Shown piece by piece: positions 4,789 to 52,816 of a stretch of 64,000 nt of DNA; within the stretch, counting starts at the first letter, position 1, and each line of letters opens with the position of its first letter. The notes beneath the pieces are model-generated. The model was not told the DNA's origin, made no database searches, and was given only the letters and a program-made list of their open reading frames with translations. Source of the DNA: Haloarcula sp. DT43. GTDB lineage: Archaea > Halobacteriota > Halobacteria > Halobacteriales > Haloarculaceae. The DNA is taken from contig NZ_JAYMGZ010000001.1 of the NCBI RefSeq assembly GCF_037078405.1, forward strand, positions 930,001 to 994,000. Direction: 5' to 3'. The translations under genes were made by a program, and so were the position numbers.

Positions 4789-5721
4789 ATGGCTACACTC
4801 GAAATCAACAATCTCCACGCAGAAGTCGCAGAAGAGGACGGTGAGACGATTCTCCGCGGTGTCGACCTGGAAGTCGAATCCGGCGAGATTCACGCGCTGA
4901 TGGGCCCCAACGGCTCGGGGAAGTCGACGACGGCGAAGATTATCGCCGGCCACCCGGCCTACGAGGTAACCGACGGCGAAGTGCTCATCCACCTCGAGGA
5001 AGACGAGTTCGGTGACGAGGAAATCCCGGAGGACCTCCGAACCTGGAACCTGCTCGACCTGGAACCGAACGAGCGCGCCGCGCTCGGCATCTTCCTCGGC
5101 TTCCAGTACCCGGCCGAAATCGAGGGCGTCACGATGGTGAACTTCCTGCGGACCGCGCTCAACGCCAAGCTCGAAGAGCGCGAGGAACTCTTCGAGGACG
5201 ACGACGAGGAAGACGAAGCCGACGCAGAGGGCGGCGACACCAACGAGGACGCCGCCGGCTACGACACCTCCCCGATGGAAGGCAACGTCGAAGAGGGCGA
5301 AATCGGCGTCGCCGAGTTCCAGGAAATCCTCCAGGAGAAGATGGAGCAACTGGACATGGACGAGAAGTTCGCGTCCCGGTATCTCAACGCCGGCTTCTCC
5401 GGCGGCGAGAAGAAGCAAAACGAGGTGCTCCAGGCCGCCATCCTCGAACCGTCCATCGCCGTGCTCGACGAAATCGACTCCGGGCTGGACATCGACCGGC
5501 TGCAGGACGTCTCCAACGGCATCAACGCGCTCCGTGACGAGCAGGGCGCGGGCATCCTCCAGATTACCCACTACCAGCGCATCCTCGACTACGTCGAACC
5601 CGACCACGTCCACGTGATGCTCGACGGCCAGATAGCCACCTCCGGCGGCGCGGAACTCGCCGAGAAGCTCGAAGACGAGGGGTACGACTGGGTCCGAGAG
5701 GAAGCCTACGAGGCCGCGTAA
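4789..5721 (+). CDS. sufC: Fe-S cluster assembly ATPase SufC
   Basis: ABC-type ATPase of the SUF iron-sulfur cluster scaffold, which binds SufB-SufD and drives cluster assembly in the cytoplasm. Walker [10 protein letters not shown] (about residues 39-47), signature [12 protein letters not shown] and Walker [13 protein letters not shown] are all present. At 310 residues it is longer than bacterial SufC (about 250) because of an acidic insert at about residues 130-175, between the Q-loop region ([10 protein letters not shown]) and the signature motif. It is the first gene of sufCBD, 36 bp before sufB. The leader at 4691-4788 is AT-rich (TATA-like TATATA near 4709) and holds short complementary arms. 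Confidence 0.96.
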
Positions 5722-5757
5722 CGCCCTTCCGTACACAGCGATAACACTACACACACT

Positions 5758-7188
5758 ATGAGTTCAGACCAAGACCACCTCAAAGAAACCGACACCGAGA
5801 AGCGCTTCGAGTTCAAGAAAGAGGAGAAATCCGCCTTCGAAGCCGAGAAGGGCCTCACGGAGGAGACCATCCGGGTCATCTCCGAAGACAAGGACGAGCC
5901 CGAATGGATGCTCGAGCGCCGCCTGCGCGCGCTCGAACAGTACAAGGAGATGCCGATGCCGGACGACTGGCCGGGCGCGCCCGACCTCTCCGAGGTCGAC
6001 GTCGACGAAATCGTCCCGTACATCCGCCCCGACATCGAGACACGCGGCGGCGTCGACGACTGGAACGACCTCCCGGAGGAGATTCAGGACACCTTCGACA
6101 AACTGGGCATCCCGGAAGCCGAGAAGAACGCGCTCTCGGGCGTCGGTGCGCAGTACGAGTCCGAAATCGTCTACCAGAACATGCAGGAGCGCTGGGAGGA
6201 GAAGGGCGTCATCTTCTGTGACATGGACAAGGCCGTCCAGGAGCACGAAGACATCCTCAAAGAGTACTTCATGACCAAGGCCGTGCCGCCGAGTGACAAC
6301 AAGTTCGCGGCGCTGCACGGCGCAATCTGGTCCGGCGGGTCGTTCGTCTACGTCCCCGAGGACACCACGGTCGACATGCCGGTCCAGGCGTACTTCCGCA
6401 TGAACTCCGACGGCATGGGCCAGTTCGAGCACACGCTCATCATCGCCGAGGAGAACTCCGAGGTCCACTACATCGAGGGCTGTTCCGCCCCGAAGTACTC
6501 GGAGTTCAACCTTCACTCCGGCGGCGTCGAAGTGTTCGTCAAGGAGAACGCCCACGTCCAGTACTCGACCGTCCAGAACTGGTCGAAGAACACGTACAAC
6601 CTCAACACCAAGCGCGCCATCTGCGAGGCCGACGGCACGATGGAGTGGGTCTCCGGGTCGATGGGGTCGAAGGCCACGATGCTGTATCCCTCCACCGTCC
6701 TCAAGGGGCCGGGCGCGACGGACAACCACATCACCATCGCCTTCGCCGGCGAGGGCCAGGACATCGACACGGGCGCGAAAGTTTATCACAACGCCCCCGA
6801 GACGAAGTCCACCATCGAGTCGAAGTCCATCAGCAAGGACGGCGGCCGCACGAACTACCGCGGCCTCGTCCACATCGCCGACGGTGCCGAGGACTCCTCG
6901 ACCTCCGTCGAGTGTGACGCCCTGATGTTCGACAACGAGTCCACCTCGGACACGATGCCGTACATGGAGATTCAGGAGTCCAAGGTCGATGTCGCCCACG
7001 AGGCGACCGTCGGCAAAATCGGCGACGAGGACGTCTTCTATCTGCAGTCCCGCGGCCTGGACGACGACGACGCGAAGCAGATGATCGTCGCCGGCTTCAT
7101 CGAGCCCATCACGGAAGAACTGCCCATCGAGTACGCCGTCGAACTGAACCGCCTCATCGAACTGGAGATGGAGGGGTCGCTCGGATAA
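5758..7188 (+). CDS. sufB: Fe-S cluster assembly scaffold SufB
   Basis: SufB core scaffold subunit (476 aa), which accepts persulfide sulfur and assembles Fe-S clusters with SufC and SufD. It carries the long parallel beta-helix with recognisable SufB blocks: FCDMDKAVQEH, YIEGCSAPKYSEFNLH, NLNTKRAICEADGTMEW and, near the C-terminus, SVECDALMFDNES, which contains the conserved cysteine of the SufB/SufD interface. The acidic N-terminal helix (KETDTEKRFEFKKEEKSAF) is typical of archaeal SufB. It lies 36 bp after sufC and only 2 bp before the sufD start, so the operon is translationally compact. Confidence 0.96.
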   Translation: MSSDQDHLKETDTEKRFEFKKEEKSAFEAEKGLTEETIRVISEDKDEPEWMLERRLRALEQYKEMPMPDDWPGAPDLSEVDVDEIVPYIRPDIETRGGVDDWNDLPEEIQDTFDKLGIPEAEKNALSGVGAQYESEIVYQNMQERWEEKGVIFCDMDKAVQEHEDILKEYFMTKAVPPSDNKFAALHGAIWSGGSFVYVPEDTTVDMPVQAYFRMNSDGMGQFEHTLIIAEENSEVHYIEGCSAPKYSEFNLHSGGVEVFVKENAHVQYSTVQNWSKNTYNLNTKRAICEADGTMEWVSGSMGSKATMLYPSTVLKGPGATDNHITIAFAGEGQDIDTGAKVYHNAPETKSTIESKSISKDGGRTNYRGLVHIADGAEDSSTSVECDALMFDNESTSDTMPYMEIQESKVDVAHEATVGKIGDEDVFYLQSRGLDDDDAKQMIVAGFIEPITEELPIEYAVELNRLIELEMEGSLG

Positions 7189-20494: not shown

Positions 20495-20732
20495 GGTGTA
20501 TTGCTCACCCCGCGGGGGATAAAACGATACTGGAATCCCCTTTCGCCGGTCGCGCCGTCTCCGGGGCCTCCCCGTCTTCGGCCCCGCGTTACCCGAGGCC
20601 ACCTCGCGGACGCCGACGGAAACCACACGATATCGGACCTGTATAAGGGTACATTAAACACTTCATAGAATCTGTATTGTTTGGTCATGCATATAGCCAA
20701 GTTTTACCAGTAAGTCTTGAATATCACCCACT

Positions 20733-40839: not shown

Positions 40840-40872
40840 TTTTGTACCACCGAAAGATATCACTAGGTGGTA
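40840..40872 (+). promoter_or_regulatory. thi4 promoter with TACCACC/GGTGGTA dyad
   Basis: A TATA-like TTTTGTA (40840-40846) sits about 27 bp before the thi4 ATG, implying a leaderless mRNA. The 7-bp inverted repeat TACCACC (40845-40851) and GGTGGTA (40866-40872) brackets the predicted transcription start, a position suited to repression. A TPP riboswitch is not possible with no leader, so protein control (ThiR-type) is likelier. Confidence 0.55.
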
Positions 40873-41807
40873 TGACCGATTCAGACTCCTTCGAGCAGTT
40901 CAGCGACGTCGGCGAGGCGGAAGTCACACGCGCAATCGGCCAGGAGTGGACCGAGGAGTTCATGGACTTCTCGGACTCCGACGTCATCATCGTCGGGGGC
41001 GGCCCCTCGGGGCTGATGGCCGCGAAGGAACTCGCCGAGCGCGGTGTCCAGGTGATGGTCGTCGAGAAGAACAACTACCTCGGCGGCGGCTTCTGGCTCG
41101 GCGGCTTCCTCATGAACAAGGTCACGGTACGGGACCCGGCCCAGCAGGTGCTGGACGAACTCGACGTGGACCACAAGCAGTCCAAGGACAGCGAGGGACT
41201 GTACGTCGCCAACGGGCCGGAGGCCTGTTCGGGGCTCATCAAGGCCGCCTGCGACGCCGGCGCGAAGATGCAGAACATGACGGAGTTCACCGACATCGTC
41301 ATCCGCGAGGACCACCGCGTCGGCGGTATCGTGATGAACTGGACGCCGGTCCACGCGCTGCCCCGCGAAATCACCTGCGTCGATCCCATCGCCGTCGAGG
41401 CCGACCTCGTCATCGACGCGACGGGCCACGACGCGATGGCCGTCAAGAAACTCGACGAGCGCGGCGTCCTGAACGCGCCGGGCCTCGAAGACGAGGCCAG
41501 CGGCATGGACCAGACCGACGACGACACCTACGGCGCGCCCGGCCACGACTCGCCCGGCCACGACTCGATGTGGGTCGGCGAGAGCGAGGACGCCGTCGTC
41601 GAACACACCGGCCTCGCCCACGACGGCCTCGTCGTCACCGGCATGGCCACGGCGACGACCTACGGCCTCCCGCGCATGGGGCCGACGTTCGGCGCGATGC
41701 TGGTCTCCGGGAAGCGCGCCGCGCAGGTTGCGCTGGACGAACTGGAGGTCGACGCCGACCCCGTCGACATCACCAGTCGCGACGCCGCGACACCCGCTGA
41801 CGACTGA
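40872..41807 (+). CDS. thi4: thiamine thiazole synthase Thi4
   Basis: A 311-residue FAD/NAD-dependent Thi4 that makes the thiazole moiety of thiamine from NAD and glycine. The dinucleotide-binding motif [22 protein letters not shown] starts near residue 37. Further blocks: [30 protein letters not shown] and [22 protein letters not shown]. Cys169 ([12 protein letters not shown]) aligns with the sulfur-donating Cys of eukaryotic and haloarchaeal Thi4, whereas methanogen enzymes carry His; a suicidal sulfur transfer is therefore possible. An insert of DSPGHDS-type repeats lies near residue 220. The ATG at 40872 is preferred over 40818. Confidence 0.95.
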
Positions 41808-42405: not shown

Positions 42406-42507
42406 CGCGCCACCGACCGGTCCCACCCTCCGCTCTGCCGGTCCCGGTGGCCGGTGCAAATCCCGATACGTAACTGATATCACTGGCCGGTACCACCGTT
42501 GAATACC

Positions 42508-43272
42508 ATGGAGTCTGTCACGCTGTACCGTGCCCCGACGACGGTCGTCGACGCCGCGACTGTCGCCGACTGGCTCGGCGCGCGGGTCGAGGCTGCCGTC
42601 TCCGTCCGGGACCGGTTTCTCTCGCGGCACGGCGATTCGGAACTGGCGGAATCGTTCGCACGGGCGCGGGTGCTCTCGCCCTACGACCGCGAGACCGGGA
42701 ACACGATGCTCGGCATCGTTCGTTACGAGGAGCGAGCGCTGGACTCGCCCGAACGGGCCGGTGGCGTCATCTACGACGGGCTGGCCGTCCAGCGGGCGCT
42801 CCACGAGCGACTCCCCGAGGCCGAGCGGTCGCTGGACCACCTCCACGTCCCGCTGCTGGACCGCGTCGTCGGGACCTGGGGCGACCACGACGGCCGCTGG
42901 CACAAGCGCGTCACCGTCCTCGGCCAGCCCGCGGTCGTCTCGGTGCCGGGGCTGTACGAGGCCCCCGCAAAGCCGGAGCAGTACTACAAGGAACAGCAGC
43001 GACACGCCCTGCTCTCCGGCGGGGCACCGCCCCGCGAGGTGCTCGAAAACGAGGTCGAGGGGGCGTTTCTGGTCGAGGACGACCCCCGGACGACCGAGGC
43101 GCTCAAGGGCTACGTCCTGCAGGCCTACCACTACCTCGACACCGGCGAGACGTTCTGCGACGACGAGGCCTGCCGGCTCCACAACCCACACCGCCAGCCC
43201 GGCGTCGTCGCCGCACAGCTCCGGGAGCCCGAGTTCTGTCCCCGTCACGCGGAGCGCTACCGGCCGGCGTGA
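42508..43272 (+). CDS. conserved archaeal protein with C-terminal Cys/His cluster
   Basis: A 254-residue protein opening MESVTLYRAPTTVVDAATVADWLGARV. The first two thirds contain GNTMLGIVRYEERALDSPERAGGVIYDGLAVQ and LDHLHVPLLDRVVGTWGDHDGRWHKR. The C-terminus has a metal-site-like cluster: FCDDEACRLHNPHRQ followed by FCPRHAERY, reminiscent of the Cys motif of archaemetzincin-like putative metallopeptidases. No HExxH is present. ATG 42508 is preferred to the in-frame TTG 42499. A TACCACC half-site like that at thi4 lies 11 bp before the start. Function unresolved. Confidence 0.75.
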   Translation: MESVTLYRAPTTVVDAATVADWLGARVEAAVSVRDRFLSRHGDSELAESFARARVLSPYDRETGNTMLGIVRYEERALDSPERAGGVIYDGLAVQRALHERLPEAERSLDHLHVPLLDRVVGTWGDHDGRWHKRVTVLGQPAVVSVPGLYEAPAKPEQYYKEQQRHALLSGGAPPREVLENEVEGAFLVEDDPRTTEALKGYVLQAYHYLDTGETFCDDEACRLHNPHRQPGVVAAQLREPEFCPRHAERYRPA

Positions 43273-43923
43273 CTACGTGACGGTCCCGCTCAGCAGGCCG
43301 ACGAACCCGCCCGCCATCGTCTCGTAGCGCCTGTCGACTGTCCGCGCGGTCAGCCGCTCGCGGGCCGCCCGGACCCGCCGTTCGAACGCGCTGGCGTGTG
43401 ACCGCGTCGAGAGCCGCGTCCCCGGCGCGGAGAGCCGGACGAACCCCTCGAACGCGAGATTCAGTGGCGCAGCGAGGGCGCTCTGGCTCCGCTGGAAATT
43501 CAACAGTGCGACGCGACCCCCCGAGGCGACGCAGTCACACCACGCGTCGACCGCCGCCGCGGGGTCCTCGAAGATACCGGCGACGAACGTCGCCAGCACG
43601 GCGTCTGCCCCCCGGACCGGCGGTCGGGACGCATCCGCCTGCACGTAGTGGACGCTCCCGCCCGTTCGCGCGGGACGGTCGCGTGCGCGGTCGAGCATCT
43701 CCCGAGTCACGTCGACGCCGACGATGCGCCCCGCCGGCCCGACCCGCTCGCGGAGCGCCGGCACGTTCGCGCCCGTGCCACACCCCATCTCGACGACGGT
43801 GTCGCCGGGGTCGAGCGCCAGCGCGGCCGCCGTCCGGTCGCGCCAGGAGGCCACGCCCGGCACGCTCGCCAGCCAGTCGTACACCCGCGCCCAGCGGCCG
43901 TAGAACGACTGCGCGTCGGTCAC
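43273..43923 (-). CDS. class I SAM-dependent methyltransferase
   Basis: A 216-residue methyltransferase with motif I VVEMGCGTGANVPALRERVG, motif II GVDVTREML and motif IV AVLATFVAGIF. The N-terminal FYGRWARVYDWLASVPG resembles UbiE-like enzymes. Its ATG overlaps the stop of the HTH-ThiN gene (ATGA), so it is coupled to that regulator and may belong to the same process. The substrate is unknown. It is convergent with the Cys/His-cluster gene, 0 bp apart. Confidence 0.87.
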   Translation of the reverse strand: MTDAQSFYGRWARVYDWLASVPGVASWRDRTAAALALDPGDTVVEMGCGTGANVPALRERVGPAGRIVGVDVTREMLDRARDRPARTGGSVHYVQADASRPPVRGADAVLATFVAGIFEDPAAAVDAWCDCVASGGRVALLNFQRSQSALAAPLNLAFEGFVRLSAPGTRLSTRSHASAFERRVRAARERLTARTVDRRYETMAGGFVGLLSGTVT

Positions 43924-44816
43924 AGGATTTCGCGCGCCGTCTCGGCGACCGACACGGCGTCGTCCCCGAGCAGGTACACTACCGGCTCGATACCCATCGC
44001 GCCGGTGTGATAGAGGACGTCGACGCCCGGGTCCTCGGCCAGAGCGGCCGCAACGGCCGGTTCGACGCGCTCCTCGGCGTCGAACTCGACGGCGGTCAGG
44101 CCCTCGTCCCGCAGCGCGGCCACGACGGCCTCGTCGTACCGGACGTTCAGTACGGCGCGGGCGTCGCTCCCGGCGGTCCGTGCCGCCAGCAACAGCGTCG
44201 CGACGTGCTCGCTGACGCCGAACTCGGGGTCAGCCGGGATAGTCGCCCGCCCCTTCACGTCGAGAATCCGCCCCGGGACGGCGGCCACGTCCTCGATGCT
44301 CTCGGCCTCGGGGAGACACTGGACGAGGTTCGACCCGACCGCCGGGATGAGCGTCGCGAACCCGCTGGTGTTTTCCAGCACCGAGAGCCCGCGCCGCACG
44401 GACGCGAGCGTCCGCTCGGCCGACCGCAACTGCGAGTCCGGGTCGTGGACGGCGAACTCGTCGTCGTACTCACCCAGCTCCGGGACCGCCTCCTCGTGTA
44501 ACTGCGCGAGGACGCCGCCGTGTTCGAGTTCGCGGACGAACACCTCCGTCTCGACCAGCGCCTGGACGGGGCTCATGTCGCCGTCGGCCAGCCCGTCGGC
44601 AAGCCGCTCGACCAGCTCCGCCAGCCCGCGGTGGGCCAGCAGGTCGTCGTGGCGCGCCACGTCGCCGTGGACGTACTTCGAGACCGCGCTCTGGCTGATG
44701 CCCAGCAGGTCCGCAACTTCCGACTGGGTCAGGCCACGCTCCCGCAGGGCGTCGGCCAGCAGCGAGCGGAACGTCGGCAGGAAGTCGTCGACGACGATTT
44801 CCTCGATGAACCGCAT
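43920..44816 (-). CDS. HTH-ThiN regulator (ThiR-like), paralogue 1
   Basis: A 298-residue protein with a Cro/XRE-like HTH (about residues 15-55: LADALRERGLTQSEVADLLG, SQSAVSKYVHG), a helical linker, and a C-terminal thiamine-phosphate-synthase-like ThiN domain (about 125-298: LIPAVGSNLVQCLPEAESIEDVAAVPGRI, FGVSEHVATLLLAART, LYHTGAMGIEPVVYLLG). This is the architecture of archaeal ThiR, which senses thiamine phosphates and represses thiamine genes. A second paralogue lies at 51896. It is downstream of dcd and overlaps a methyltransferase gene. Direct GATACC repeats occur 70 bp upstream. Confidence 0.88.
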   Translation of the reverse strand: MRFIEEIVVDDFLPTFRSLLADALRERGLTQSEVADLLGISQSAVSKYVHGDVARHDDLLAHRGLAELVERLADGLADGDMSPVQALVETEVFVRELEHGGVLAQLHEEAVPELGEYDDEFAVHDPDSQLRSAERTLASVRRGLSVLENTSGFATLIPAVGSNLVQCLPEAESIEDVAAVPGRILDVKGRATIPADPEFGVSEHVATLLLAARTAGSDARAVLNVRYDEAVVAALRDEGLTAVEFDAEERVEPAVAAALAEDPGVDVLYHTGAMGIEPVVYLLGDDAVSVAETAREIL

Positions 44817-48680: not shown

Positions 48681-48830
48681 TTACCAATTCGCATTTGAGT
48701 GTCCCTCCGTGACGACCAGCCAGCAGACCGCCAGAAAGACCGCGAGGACGAGCAGTATCGACCCCCAGACGAGCGCCCCGAAGGCCGTCGAGCCCAGCGC
48801 GGCGAGGGGAAGCGCGGCTGTCGCGGTCAT
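48681..48830 (-). CDS. 49-residue single-span membrane peptide, symporter accessory protein candidate
   Basis: A small protein with one helix (LAALGSTAFGALVWGSILLVLAVFLAVCWLVV, about residues 8-40) and a polar C-terminal tail EGHSNANW. Its ATG overlaps the stop of the symporter gene as ATGA, which fixes the start and implies coupled translation. Small accessory subunits are known for some SSS symporters, so this is probably one, but the assignment rests on context. It is the last gene of the tenA-tenA-symporter operon. Confidence 0.7.
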   Translation of the reverse strand: MTATAALPLAALGSTAFGALVWGSILLVLAVFLAVCWLVVTEGHSNANW

Positions 48831-50335
48831 CGCTCGGACCCCCCGTCGGCCACCGGGTCGTCGAGCGCCCGGACCTCCCGACCGAGGTCGTCGAGGTCGG
48901 CGTCGGCCCCGCCCAGTAGCGTCGCCACGGCGGTGAGTGCGGCCGAGACCAGCGTCGCGCCGGCGAAGGCGGTCAGGAACGACGGCGCTGGGAGGACGCT
49001 GCCGACGACCGGGACTGTTGTGACCAGGCCACGCAGCGACGGGAAGTACGCGAAGCCGACGACCAGGCCGGCGACCCCCGAGACCATCGCGCCCGGGCCG
49101 GTGAGCCGCTCGGTGTAGAGACCGGCGAGGAACGGGACGAAGACAGCGGCGGCCAGCAGGTCGGCAGTCAGGAACAACTGGAGGACGCTGTACCCCTGTG
49201 CGCCGATGGCCATCGCGGCGAGGGCGACGCCGACTGTCAGCCCGCGCCCGCCCAGCCAGAGGGTCCGCTGGTCGGGGTCGTCGAGCAGTCGGGCGAGGTC
49301 GGCGGTGACGACGCTGGCGATGGCGTTGAACATCGTGTCGGCGGAGCTCATCACCAGCAACACGGCGAGGACGACGACGGCGAGGGTCACCCACGCGGGG
49401 AACGCCTTCGCGACCACGAGGAAGAAGGCGATGCTCGCGGAGCCCGATTCGGTGAGGCCGAGCCCCGCCGCGGCGATGCCGAACAGCCCGGAGAGCAGGA
49501 GCATCGGGACGACCACGACGGCGGCGATGCCCAGCCCGCGCCGCAAGGTGCGTTCGCCGTCGGCGGCGTACACCCGCTGCCAGACGCCCTGGTTCAGCAT
49601 GTTCGCACCGAGGAGGGCGAACGCGACGTACAGGCCGAACTCCAGTCCGGGACCGAACCCGGGGTCGAGCAGCGTCGGGTCGGCCGACACCACCGTCGCG
49701 TGGAGCCCGCTCGTCCCGCCCAGCGAGAGCAGCGCGCCGCCGAAGCCGACGGCCAGGAGCGGCAGGATGACCAGCGTCTGGACGGTGTCGGTGACGATGC
49801 TGGCGAGCAGGCCGCCGTAGGTCGTGTAGACGAGGACGAACCCCCCGACGAGCAGCGAGGTCTGCCAGAGCGGCACGTCCGCGACGAGCGCGAGCGCGCC
49901 GGCGATGCCGGTCATCTCCGCGGCGAGGAAGATGAACATGTAGAACACCGAGACGACCAGGACGAGCAGGTACATCCCGGTGCCAAAGCGGGCGTAGGCG
50001 AACTCGGTCAGCGAGTGGCCCGCGGGCATCACCTCGCGGATGCGAGCGCCGACCGGCACGAAGAGCGCGAGCGGAATCGCGCTGCCGATGGCGTAGCCCA
50101 GGACGGCGGGCAACCCGCCGAAAGCGGCCCCGGCCTCGGCTGGGCTCAGCAGAATCCAGACGCCCATCATCGACGCGATGACCGTCGCGGCGAGGGTCCC
50201 GCTGCCGGCCGAGTCACGCGCCGAGATGTACGACTCCACCGAGTCGATGCGGCCGCGCGCGGCCAGGAGGCCGACGCCGGTGAACACGAGGACTGTGGCC
50301 GCGGTCAGGCCGAGCGCCACGGTCGAGGAGACCAT
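48827..50335 (-). CDS. sodium:solute symporter (SSS family), probable thiamine-precursor transporter
   Basis: A 502-residue SSS-family transporter with about 13 transmembrane helices. Typical blocks are SVESYISARDSAGSGTLAATVIASMMGVWILLSP at helix 1, AYARFGTGMYLLVLVVSVFYMF, VYTTYGGLLASIVTDTVQ (Na+-site region) and LLVMSSADTMFNAIASVVTADL. The start ATG immediately follows the tenA stop with no gap (TAGATG). The operon (two TenA proteins, divergent ThiR) suggests that it imports a pyrimidine or thiamine degradation product for salvage; substrate is inference. Confidence 0.88.
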   Translation of the reverse strand: MVSSTVALGLTAATVLVFTGVGLLAARGRIDSVESYISARDSAGSGTLAATVIASMMGVWILLSPAEAGAAFGGLPAVLGYAIGSAIPLALFVPVGARIREVMPAGHSLTEFAYARFGTGMYLLVLVVSVFYMFIFLAAEMTGIAGALALVADVPLWQTSLLVGGFVLVYTTYGGLLASIVTDTVQTLVILPLLAVGFGGALLSLGGTSGLHATVVSADPTLLDPGFGPGLEFGLYVAFALLGANMLNQGVWQRVYAADGERTLRRGLGIAAVVVVPMLLLSGLFGIAAAGLGLTESGSASIAFFLVVAKAFPAWVTLAVVVLAVLLVMSSADTMFNAIASVVTADLARLLDDPDQRTLWLGGRGLTVGVALAAMAIGAQGYSVLQLFLTADLLAAAVFVPFLAGLYTERLTGPGAMVSGVAGLVVGFAYFPSLRGLVTTVPVVGSVLPAPSFLTAFAGATLVSAALTAVATLLGGADADLDDLGREVRALDDPVADGGSER

Positions 50336-51082
50336 CTACGGGCTCACCTCGCTGTCGGCCGCGTCGTAGGCCGTCTCGAAGAACTGCCGTTCGAGCGCGA
50401 CCGTGCGCTCGAACAGCGACGCGACGCGGGCCGCCCGCCGCGGCGAGAGCGTCGGGCCGACGGCGTCGAGTTCGCCCCGGAGCCAGTCGACGAACGCGAC
50501 GAACGGCTCGACCGCGTGGAGGTCCACCCACTCGGCGAAGTAGAAGGGCAGCCCCGTCCCGGCGCTGGGCGGGCCGCCCGGGTCGCCGTGCGCCGCGGCG
50601 GCCGCCGTCGCCCACGACTCGTATATCCACTCGGCGGGGACGAGCACGGCCAGCGTCTCCGCGTAGCCGCCCTCCCGCGCGGCCCGGCCCAGCAGGTCGA
50701 CGAACGCCGCCGTCGTCGGCGTCGGCTCGGGGTCCTGCCAGTCCGGTTCGTCGACCCCCAGCGCCGCGAAGGAGCGCTCGAAGTAGTCGTCTTCCTCGTC
50801 GGTCACGGTATCGAGGAACTCGACGAGGCGGCGCTTGGCCGCCATGTCCGGAGCCTGTCCGACCGCGTGGCCGAACGTCCCGACGAGTTCGCCGACGAAG
50901 GCGTAGTCCTGCACCAGGTAGTGTGCGAACGCGCCCTCGTCGAGCGTGCCGGCCCCGAGTTCTTCGACGAATCGGTGCCCGACGGCGGCGTCCCAGTCGG
51001 GCTGATTCCGCTCGCGGAGCCAATCGGTGAACTGGGGGTCCGTGACGCGGTCGGCGTAGGCCGCGTACGCCTCGGTCGTCAT
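50336..51082 (-). CDS. TenA-family protein, TenA_E type
   Basis: A 248-residue TenA/PQQC-fold all-helical protein. The segment AVLVPAEWIYESWATAA takes the place of the catalytic-Cys block of TenA_C, with Ala-Glu instead of Cys, the hallmark of TenA_E enzymes that act on thiamine-derived pyrimidines. Other blocks: FAHYLVQDYAFVGELVGTFGHA and FYFAEWVDLHAVEPF, FERTVALERQFFETAY. The start overlaps the stop of the upstream tenA by 4 bp. It is probably involved in hydrolysing aminopyrimidines to HMP for thiamine salvage. Confidence 0.9.
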   Translation of the reverse strand: MTTEAYAAYADRVTDPQFTDWLRERNQPDWDAAVGHRFVEELGAGTLDEGAFAHYLVQDYAFVGELVGTFGHAVGQAPDMAAKRRLVEFLDTVTDEEDDYFERSFAALGVDEPDWQDPEPTPTTAAFVDLLGRAAREGGYAETLAVLVPAEWIYESWATAAAAAHGDPGGPPSAGTGLPFYFAEWVDLHAVEPFVAFVDWLRGELDAVGPTLSPRRAARVASLFERTVALERQFFETAYDAADSEVSP

Positions 51083-51738
51083 AGCGCCCACCCCTCCCGC
51101 GTGTAGGCCATCTCCCAGAACCGGTGTTCGAGCTTCGCGCTCGTCAGGAACGCCGCCTCCATGGCGTCGTGCTGGCCGGGATAGCGCTCGCCACAGCGGT
51201 CGACGTAGGCCCGACACCACTCGGTCGCCTCGCGGAACTCCGCGCCGGTGTACTGCTCGATGAACGGCGTGTAGCGGTGCTCCTCCTCGGCCAGGTCGGC
51301 CATGTGGGCGGCCACGTCGAGGTAGCCCTGCATGCAGGGGTACAGCGCCGCGGCGATTTCGGCCTCGTGGCCCTCGTAGGCCGTCCGGACGAGGAAGTTC
51401 GTGTACGCCAGACAGGTCGGGGCCTTCTCGGTCGACTCCAGGTCGGCCTCGGAGACGCCGTAGTCGGCCGCGAACTCCCGGTGGAGGTCCATCTCGGTGT
51501 CGAGCACTTGGTGGGCGACGCCGAGCAGGTGCGCCATCGTCGACTCGTCGCGCGCCGTCGCCCCCGCGAGCGCGAACAGTCGCGCGTAGTCCTGCAGGTA
51601 CCGGTAGTCCTGTTTCACCCAGTGCTCGAACGCCGACTCGTCGAGCGTCCCGTGGGCCAGTTCGGTGACGAACGGGTGCGCCTTCTGTGCCGCCCAGATG
51701 CTTTCGCCGATGTCGAGCAGGTGGTCGCTGAACGCCAT
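51079..51738 (-). CDS. tenA: thiaminase II/TenA, TenA_C type
   Basis: A 219-residue TenA with the catalytic Cys in AAALYPCMQGYLDVAAHM, followed by the Glu motif KLEHRFWEMAY near the C-terminus; HWVKQDYRYLQDYARLFALA is the family's N-terminal signature. It hydrolyses aminomethyl-pyrimidine breakdown products to HMP. It is the first gene of a four-gene operon with a TATA-like GATATAATAC at 51765-51774 (minus) and is divergent from the thiR paralogue. The presence of both Cys- and Glu-type TenA in one operon is notable. Confidence 0.92.
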   Translation of the reverse strand: MAFSDHLLDIGESIWAAQKAHPFVTELAHGTLDESAFEHWVKQDYRYLQDYARLFALAGATARDESTMAHLLGVAHQVLDTEMDLHREFAADYGVSEADLESTEKAPTCLAYTNFLVRTAYEGHEAEIAAALYPCMQGYLDVAAHMADLAEEEHRYTPFIEQYTGAEFREATEWCRAYVDRCGERYPGQHDAMEAAFLTSAKLEHRFWEMAYTREGWAL

Positions 51739-51764
51739 TGGTAGTCGACGCGACGCGGCCCTGC

Positions 51765-51796
51765 GTATTATATCCTGCTAATACAACTTGGTTGTA
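51765..51796. promoter_or_regulatory. tenA promoter and TACAAC/GTTGTA dyad between tenA and thiR
   Basis: On the minus strand a TATA-like GATATAATAC (51765-51774) precedes tenA by about 32 bp. Directly upstream of it lies the dyad TACAAC-ttg-GTTGTA (51782-51796). Its half-site TACMAC is shared with the thi4 dyad TACCAC/GTGGTA, although the spacing differs. Confidence 0.5.
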
Positions 51797-51895
51797 CAGC
51801 GCGCGGCGGGGGGTGCCCGACGGCCGGCCCGGCTGTGGGCGACCTTCGTTGCACAGTCCCAACTGCTAAGCGAACCACGACCCTCACTCCCGGCA

Positions 51896-52816
51896 ATGAC
51901 ACTGCAGTTGCCGAGCGAAATCGTGGTCGAGCGGTTCCTCCCGACCGCCCGGGCGATGCTCGCGACGGAGCTCGACGAGAAGGGGTGGACCCAGCAGGAC
52001 ATCGCCGACCAGCTCGGGGTGACACAGGCCGCGGTGAGCAAGTACGCCAGCGGCTCGGTCACCGTCGAGGAGCGGTTCCGGGAGGACGCCCGGATGCGAC
52101 AGACCATCGAGCGCATCGCCGACGGCCTGGCCGCGGGCGAGATGGACGAGTACGCGGTGCTCGGCGAACTGCTCGCGCTGGTCCGGGAGTTCGAGGACCG
52201 CGGCCCCATCTGTGCGGTCCACGAGGAGGAGATGCCGGCGCTACGGGGGCTGGGCTGTGACCTCTGCGTTCGCGGGACCGACACCGCGGTGCTGGAGGAG
52301 CGGGCTGTCCTGTCGTCGGTCCGGCGGGCGACCCGCCTGCTGGCGGACAGCGCCGTCGTCGACGCCATCCCGAACGTGGGGATGAACGTCGGCATGGCCC
52401 TGCCGGACGCCGAGGACGCCCTCGACGTGGCGGCGGTCCCCGGACGGATTCACGACCTCCGGGGGCGGGTCAACGTCCCGTCGAACCCGGAGTTCGGGGC
52501 GTCGGAACACGTCGCCCGGACGATTCTGGCCGCGTCTGCGGTCGACCCCACGCGCCGGGCGGCGCTCAATCTCGTGACCGACGAGGCGGTCCTCGATGCG
52601 GCCCGCGAACGGGGCGTCGAGCCGCTGGAGTTCGACGCCGGCTACGAGGACCGGGCCGACCGCCTCGAAGCGGCGTTCCGGGAGCGGAGCGCGGTCCCCC
52701 GGGTCATCTACCACACCGGCGCGTTCGGTATCGAACCGATAACCTACGTCTTCGGCGAGACGGCGGACGAGGCCGCCGAGTTCGCGGTCGACCTCCTCGA
52801 CGCGGCCGGCGCGTAG
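51896..52816 (+). CDS. HTH-ThiN regulator (ThiR), paralogue 2
   Basis: A 306-residue protein starting MTLQLPSEIVVERFLPTARAM. The HTH is at about residues 18-58 (LATELDEKGWTQQDIADQLG, TQAAVSKYASG). A small Cys segment (RGLGCDLC) sits in the linker near residue 120. The C-terminal ThiN domain spans about 140-306 (IPNVGMNVGMALPDAEDALDVAAVPGRIHD, GASEHVARTILAAS, IYHTGAFGIEPITYVFG). It is divergently transcribed from the tenA operon, as expected for its local regulator. The ATG at 51896 is leaderless relative to a TATA-like GCTAAG at about 51865-51870. Confidence 0.9.
   Translation: MTLQLPSEIVVERFLPTARAMLATELDEKGWTQQDIADQLGVTQAAVSKYASGSVTVEERFREDARMRQTIERIADGLAAGEMDEYAVLGELLALVREFEDRGPICAVHEEEMPALRGLGCDLCVRGTDTAVLEERAVLSSVRRATRLLADSAVVDAIPNVGMNVGMALPDAEDALDVAAVPGRIHDLRGRVNVPSNPEFGASEHVARTILAASAVDPTRRAALNLVTDEAVLDAARERGVEPLEFDAGYEDRADRLEAAFRERSAVPRVIYHTGAFGIEPITYVFGETADEAAEFAVDLLDAAGA

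Follow-up and report, generated by a model that had tools for sequence, protein, structure and literature searches.

A predicted thiamine salvage operon of Haloarcula with a candidate ThiV-type symporter and a conserved single-span microprotein

The window analysed here is a stretch of 64,000 nucleotides from Haloarcula sp. DT43; named relatives whose symporters are 87-93% identical to the one described below likewise point to the genus Haloarcula. Its features of interest are listed in Table 1. Four minus-strand genes form an operon, two of them for TenA proteins, one for an SSS symporter and one for a 49-residue peptide, and the gene of an HTH-ThiN protein diverges from it. The operon is compact: tenA_C and tenA_E overlap by the 4 bp of an ATGA, as do the symporter and peptide genes, and 0 bp separate tenA_E from the symporter gene. 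All five genes were found as a first-pass annotation of this DNA had described them, and the identities it had assigned are borne out by Pfam matches to TENA_THI-4 (twice), SSF, and ThiN together with HTH_3.

Table 1. Features of the operon, its putative regulator and the thi4 gene (positions within the window)
Feature	Position	Strand	Evidence
HTH_3 + ThiN protein, ThiR-type regulator, 306 aa	51896..52816	+	Pfam ThiN E 1.2e-51, HTH_3 E 2e-6
Operator-like site TGTACAACCAAGTTGTATTAGCAG	51775..51798	-	contains perfect palindrome TACAACttgGTTGTA at 51782-51796
TenA_C (thiaminase II / aminopyrimidine hydrolase), 219 aa	51079..51738	-	Pfam TENA_THI-4 E 6.4e-45
TenA_E (Cys-less TenA), 248 aa	50336..51082	-	Pfam TENA_THI-4 E 6.9e-24
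SSS symporter, candidate ThiV type, 502 aa	48827..50335	-	Pfam SSF E 1.7e-22
49-aa single-span peptide, probable symporter accessory subunit	48681..48830	-	family alignment and exclusive linkage
Thi4 (thiazole synthase), probably same regulon	40872..41807	+	Pfam Thi4 E 9e-60; motif sites at start

The two TenA proteins differ at the active site. TenA_C, which also matches NCBIfam TIGR04306 above its cut-off, has an ALYPC motif whose cysteine aligns with the catalytic cysteine of B. subtilis TenA (ALLPC). The closest solved relative of TenA_E is the Cys-less TenA of S. pneumoniae (1z72, E 6e-30), and in this alignment the cysteine is replaced, PAEW standing where TenA_C has its cysteine, with a glutamate in the PAEW / IAEG motif. 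Alignment to solved TenA proteins thus confirms the earlier assignment of a catalytic cysteine to the first TenA and of Ala-Glu in its place to the second. Most of the TenA_E sequences of marine archaea belong to haloarchaea (PMC10470507).

The third gene product belongs to the SSS family by both sequence and fold. Its match to Pfam SSF is above the cut-off, and it scores 118.8 bits against TIGR00813, below that model's own cut-off of 184. An AF2 model of the protein (mean pLDDT 87) has the SSS fold; its nearest solved folds include the choline transporter CHT1 (VIA-align Z 40.5, rmsd 3.2, 469 residues aligned) and SGLT2 solved with MAP17 (VIA-align Z about 31). The structural match to SGLT2 stops near SGLT2 residue 559, and with numbering from TM0 the last helix of the model is TM12. 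Judged from this model, the symporter appears to lack the TM13 that MAP17 binds in SGLT2; that the 49-residue peptide occupies the place of the missing TM13 is speculation.

Together with 67 other symporter loci from 242 Halobacteria genomes and 80 named loci, the set compared comprises 148 loci, 88 of them non-redundant. The linkage is conserved, with one or two TenA genes directly upstream of the symporter at 59 of the 88. Most of the 29 symporters without an adjacent TenA retain the peptide and an operator-like site. It had been suggested at first pass that the two TenA enzymes process the imported compound one after the other; given these 29 loci, such sequential action is possible, not required.

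The genome encodes three ThiN proteins. The one encoded divergently from the operon has the architecture of ThiR, with an N-terminal HTH and a C-terminal ThiN domain. The palindrome in the intergenic region that it shares with the operon is conserved in most Haloarcula, and an exact match to TACAACNNNGTTGTA occurs only once in the genome, in this region. An initial motif for the tenA-linked loci was rejected because it had captured coding sequence of the divergent regulator. The motif that was retained, gTATAACt.gGTTATATTA, was trained on short upstream regions of tenA-linked loci only, and is not fully de novo because its seed came from a run on all loci. It gives its best score in the 64 kb at the operator-like site of the operon (28.2 bits), passes the 95th percentile of AT-rich controls in the upstream regions of 28 of the 29 TenA-free symporters (median scores 17.2 versus 2.6 bits), and has two sites at the start of thi4 (40843-40866 and 40856-40879). 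The version derived from all loci also has sites at thiDN (13.8 bits) and, in a relative, at thiC (21.4 bits). Part of the motif coincides with a TATA-like sequence, and a search with Rfam found no TPP riboswitch near the operon. A motif shared by symporter operons, thi4, the relative's thiC and thiDN is consistent with a putative ThiR regulon, and as far as can be judged from sequence the local ThiR control proposed at first pass fits this pattern.

Several other observations in the window concern the regulator and its motif. A second HTH-ThiN paralogue, 43% identical, is encoded about 7 kb away near Thi4 (43920-44816, minus strand) and has no motif site upstream. A thiamine-type motif site at 42471-42494 lies directly upstream of a gene for a DUF7001/DUF6775 probable metallopeptidase (42499-43272), which is a possible new member of the regulon. 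The second-best match, at 20690-20713 (21.7 bits), falls between methyltransferase-like and MBL-fold-like ORFs, and no thiamine gene was recognised around it.

The genome encodes Thi4 and a ThiN protein of the size of ThiDN, and it lacks thiC, which a search found in 12 of 14 Haloarcula genomes. At the usual place of thiC (G000:C4:560473-560555, locus L263) both flanks are intact on one contig and lie about 80 bp apart, versus about 1.5 kb in a relative. Because thiC is missing, an external source of pyrimidine or thiamine is predicted to be needed. The genome also encodes a ThiB-type thiamine ABC binding protein, so the operon is not the sole possible route for vitamin B1. The symporter as a class-wide replacement for lost thiC was considered and rejected, there being no association between the two (37/31 versus 112/62, Fisher p 0.19).

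Downstream of the symporter, many of the 67 loci have a hydrophobic ORF of 30-49 aa with the pattern FAxLxWGSxxLVxxVFxY that starts on the symporter stop codon. Members of this peptide family, which we call A1, are 30-54 residues long; F17, W22 and G23 are invariant in an alignment of 39 of them, and basic residues are confined to the C-terminal side. A conserved helix face was not significant (p 0.31). Homologues occupy the same place at 94 of the 148 symporter loci, or 57 of 88 after removal of near-duplicates, and the dN/dS within Haloarcula is 0.16, which indicates purifying selection; together these results exclude a chance ORF. The start codon of the peptide gene overlaps the stop codon of the symporter gene in all 52 resolved non-redundant cases; the overlap is 4 bp in 35 of them, 1 bp in 16 and 7 bp in one. 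A profile of the family gave 41 matches at E<=1e-7 in the 242 Halobacteria genomes, 40 of them directly downstream of this type of symporter. The weaker matches (E>=0.001) are short fragments, most of them parts of longer frames. The 41st match does not represent a peptide free of the symporter: it lies behind tenA_C at the same type of locus, with the symporter deleted. This locus, from a Halococcus-like genome (L253 of G208, about 5100-5960), has the peptide-like remnant between tenA_C and a ThiD-like ORF. The invariant residues, the downstream position and the restriction of all strong matches to this type of locus uphold the earlier reading of the peptide as a real and conserved partner of the symporter.

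No match over cut-off was found for the peptide in Pfam, NCBIfam or the PDB, and none for its family outside Halobacteria among 393 genomes sampled from the phylum. Weak matches to KdpF, CcmD and NF038354 were judged to be single-helix noise; the last of these, a 'putative transporter small subunit', was hit by three of the 39 members with a best E of 0.09, short of its curated cut-off.

The peptide is absent from 31 of the 88 symporter loci, in several separate clades that include Haloferax, and is therefore not always needed. Nor do the symporters without it carry an extra C-terminal helix that could substitute for it, and the 'obligate small subunit' of the first-pass annotation finds no support. 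The Haloferax symporters without the peptide (L208, L210, L212-L215, L217 and L227) have TenA genes present. On the symporter tree the presence of the peptide is scattered, with at least nine changes, a distribution compatible with repeated loss of an old partner, the count of changes being unable to separate gain from loss. A tie to TenA rather than to the symporter was rejected, the peptide being found with TenA at 35 loci and without it at 22 (p 0.16). Because it is conserved across haloarchaea only at the symporter locus, the peptide is probably a dedicated small subunit of the symporter, and its reading as an accessory subunit is well supported by genomics.

The TenA linkage and the thiamine-gene motif upstream make the symporter a candidate of the ThiV type, that is, a pyrimidine importer, for which transport of HMP or a related pyrimidine is predicted. 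We consider it probable that the locus encodes a ThiR-controlled pyrimidine importer, composed of ThiV and a small accessory subunit comparable to the SGLT2-MAP17 pair, that feeds TenA and ThiDN. The operon would then respond to thiamine and serve to take up and salvage the pyrimidine moiety of vitamin B1. Driven by the sodium gradient, the symporter, a haloarchaeal ThiV, would import HMP, the aminopyrimidine AmMP or the formylaminopyrimidine FAMP; TenA_E and TenA_C would convert FAMP and AmMP to HMP, which ThiDN would phosphorylate and join to the thiazole that Thi4 supplies. Repression would be exerted by the HTH-ThiN protein from the shared intergenic palindrome when thiamine phosphates are sufficient. 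The peptide is predicted to be a translationally coupled single-span subunit that packs against the symporter and, like MAP17 with SGLT2, may help it to fold, stay stable or function. The linkage to TenA, the motif at TenA-free symporters, thi4, thiC and thiDN, the loss of thiC, the linkage and coupling of the peptide, its retention irrespective of TenA, its low dN/dS, the placement of its basic residues and the analogy with SGLT-MAP17 all speak for this proposal; the loci without the peptide, the lack of a thiC association, the ThiB route, the TATA-like overlap and the lack of a conserved helix face speak against it.

A serious competitor, to which we give appreciable but smaller weight, is that the symporter imports HMP or thiamine and TenA only repairs intracellular thiamine breakdown products, so that the operon is joined by regulation and not by pathway. 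This would agree with the symporters that have no adjacent TenA, nearly all of which have an operator-like site, with the reported specificity of SAR11 ThiV for HMP (PMC11452348), and with the existence of an organism that has TenA_E but is unable to use external FAMP (PMC10470507), whereas the tight coupling of both TenA genes in many haloarchaea suggests that AmMP and FAMP enter too. Which transporters import FAMP and AmMP has been stated as an open question (PMC10470507), and a symporter in a tight operon with both forms of TenA is a strong candidate.

It is unlikely, in our judgement, that the peptide acts negatively on the symporter, as an inhibitor or a turnover tag limiting uptake, and not as a stabilising subunit. 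Inhibition of transporters by small membrane proteins is known, and repeated absence with no visible change of the symporter C-terminus fits a dispensable modulator; fixed translational coupling and exclusive linkage, in turn, are more typical of stoichiometric subunits, which is an argument that falls short of decisive. That the symporter transports proline or some other solute and is linked to TenA incidentally is very improbable, for the annotation 'sodium:proline symporter' in the RefSeq records checked is set against a distant PutP score of 34 bits, where the cut-off is 515, and against TenA linkage and a thiamine-gene motif across genera. Since the public records call the symporter a proline transporter and leave the peptide unannotated or as a 'hypothetical protein' in those checked, the microprotein family is easily missed.

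A haloarchaeal ThiV is said to have been predicted already by comparative genomics of thiamine genes in 2002. In SAR11, ThiV is an SSS symporter and likely HMP importer (PMC11452348); it adjoins tenA in Pelagibacterales and is an established putative HMP importer (PMC10881298, PMC11452348), so that the first-pass view of an SSS transporter in this role as unusual is not borne out. The Haloarcula symporter resembles it in being an SSS protein with a tenA neighbour, a thiC-deficient genome and, by prediction, thiamine-linked regulation. The two differ in that SAR11 uses a TPP riboswitch, whereas the Haloarcula locus has a ThiN-domain regulator and no riboswitch, and no small peptide is mentioned for SAR11. 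The TenA proteins correspond to the known Cys and Cys-less salvage enzymes, with residues aligned to solved TenA; here, however, they form a tandem pair beside a presumed importer. HTH-ThiN proteins are ThiR regulators according to the work cited in PMC12029414 (Rodionov 2017; Hwang 2017), and the protein described here is like them in its HTH and ThiN domains, adjacent thiamine genes and putative palindromic operator. Overall the operon is the haloarchaeal form of a salvage scheme whose parts, ThiV, TenA enzymes and ThiR regulation, are known in kind, and its new element is the symporter's dedicated, conserved microprotein.

For this microprotein there are two parallels. MetS is a tiny single-span partner of MetP, a LeuT-fold sodium transporter of the NSS family, and is similar in kind; the transporter family is different, and the peptide was rejected as a MetS / MaAIMP_sms protein (PF16951) on finding no match over cut-off in its own genome or in 97 haloarchaeal genomes. 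In human SSS/SLC5, MAP17 is an essential single-span auxiliary subunit of SGLT2 that packs on TM13 (PMC10803289). Both systems pair an SSS symporter with a single-span partner, with no sequence relation found between them; MAP17 sits on TM13, whereas the haloarchaeal symporter model ends after TM12, and the haloarchaeal partner, unlike MAP17, is encoded in the same operon as its symporter. We suggest, tentatively, that haloarchaeal ThiV may be a two-component symporter, in which an SSS permease requires a single-span microprotein of an unnamed family for full transport, and that the pair may be the FAMP and AmMP importer that has been missing. If true, it would be a prokaryotic counterpart of SGLT2-MAP17 within the SSS family, and a conserved microprotein linked to a single SSS symporter would offer a prokaryotic model, simple in its genetics, of the way in which MAP17-like single-span partners support this large family of transporters.
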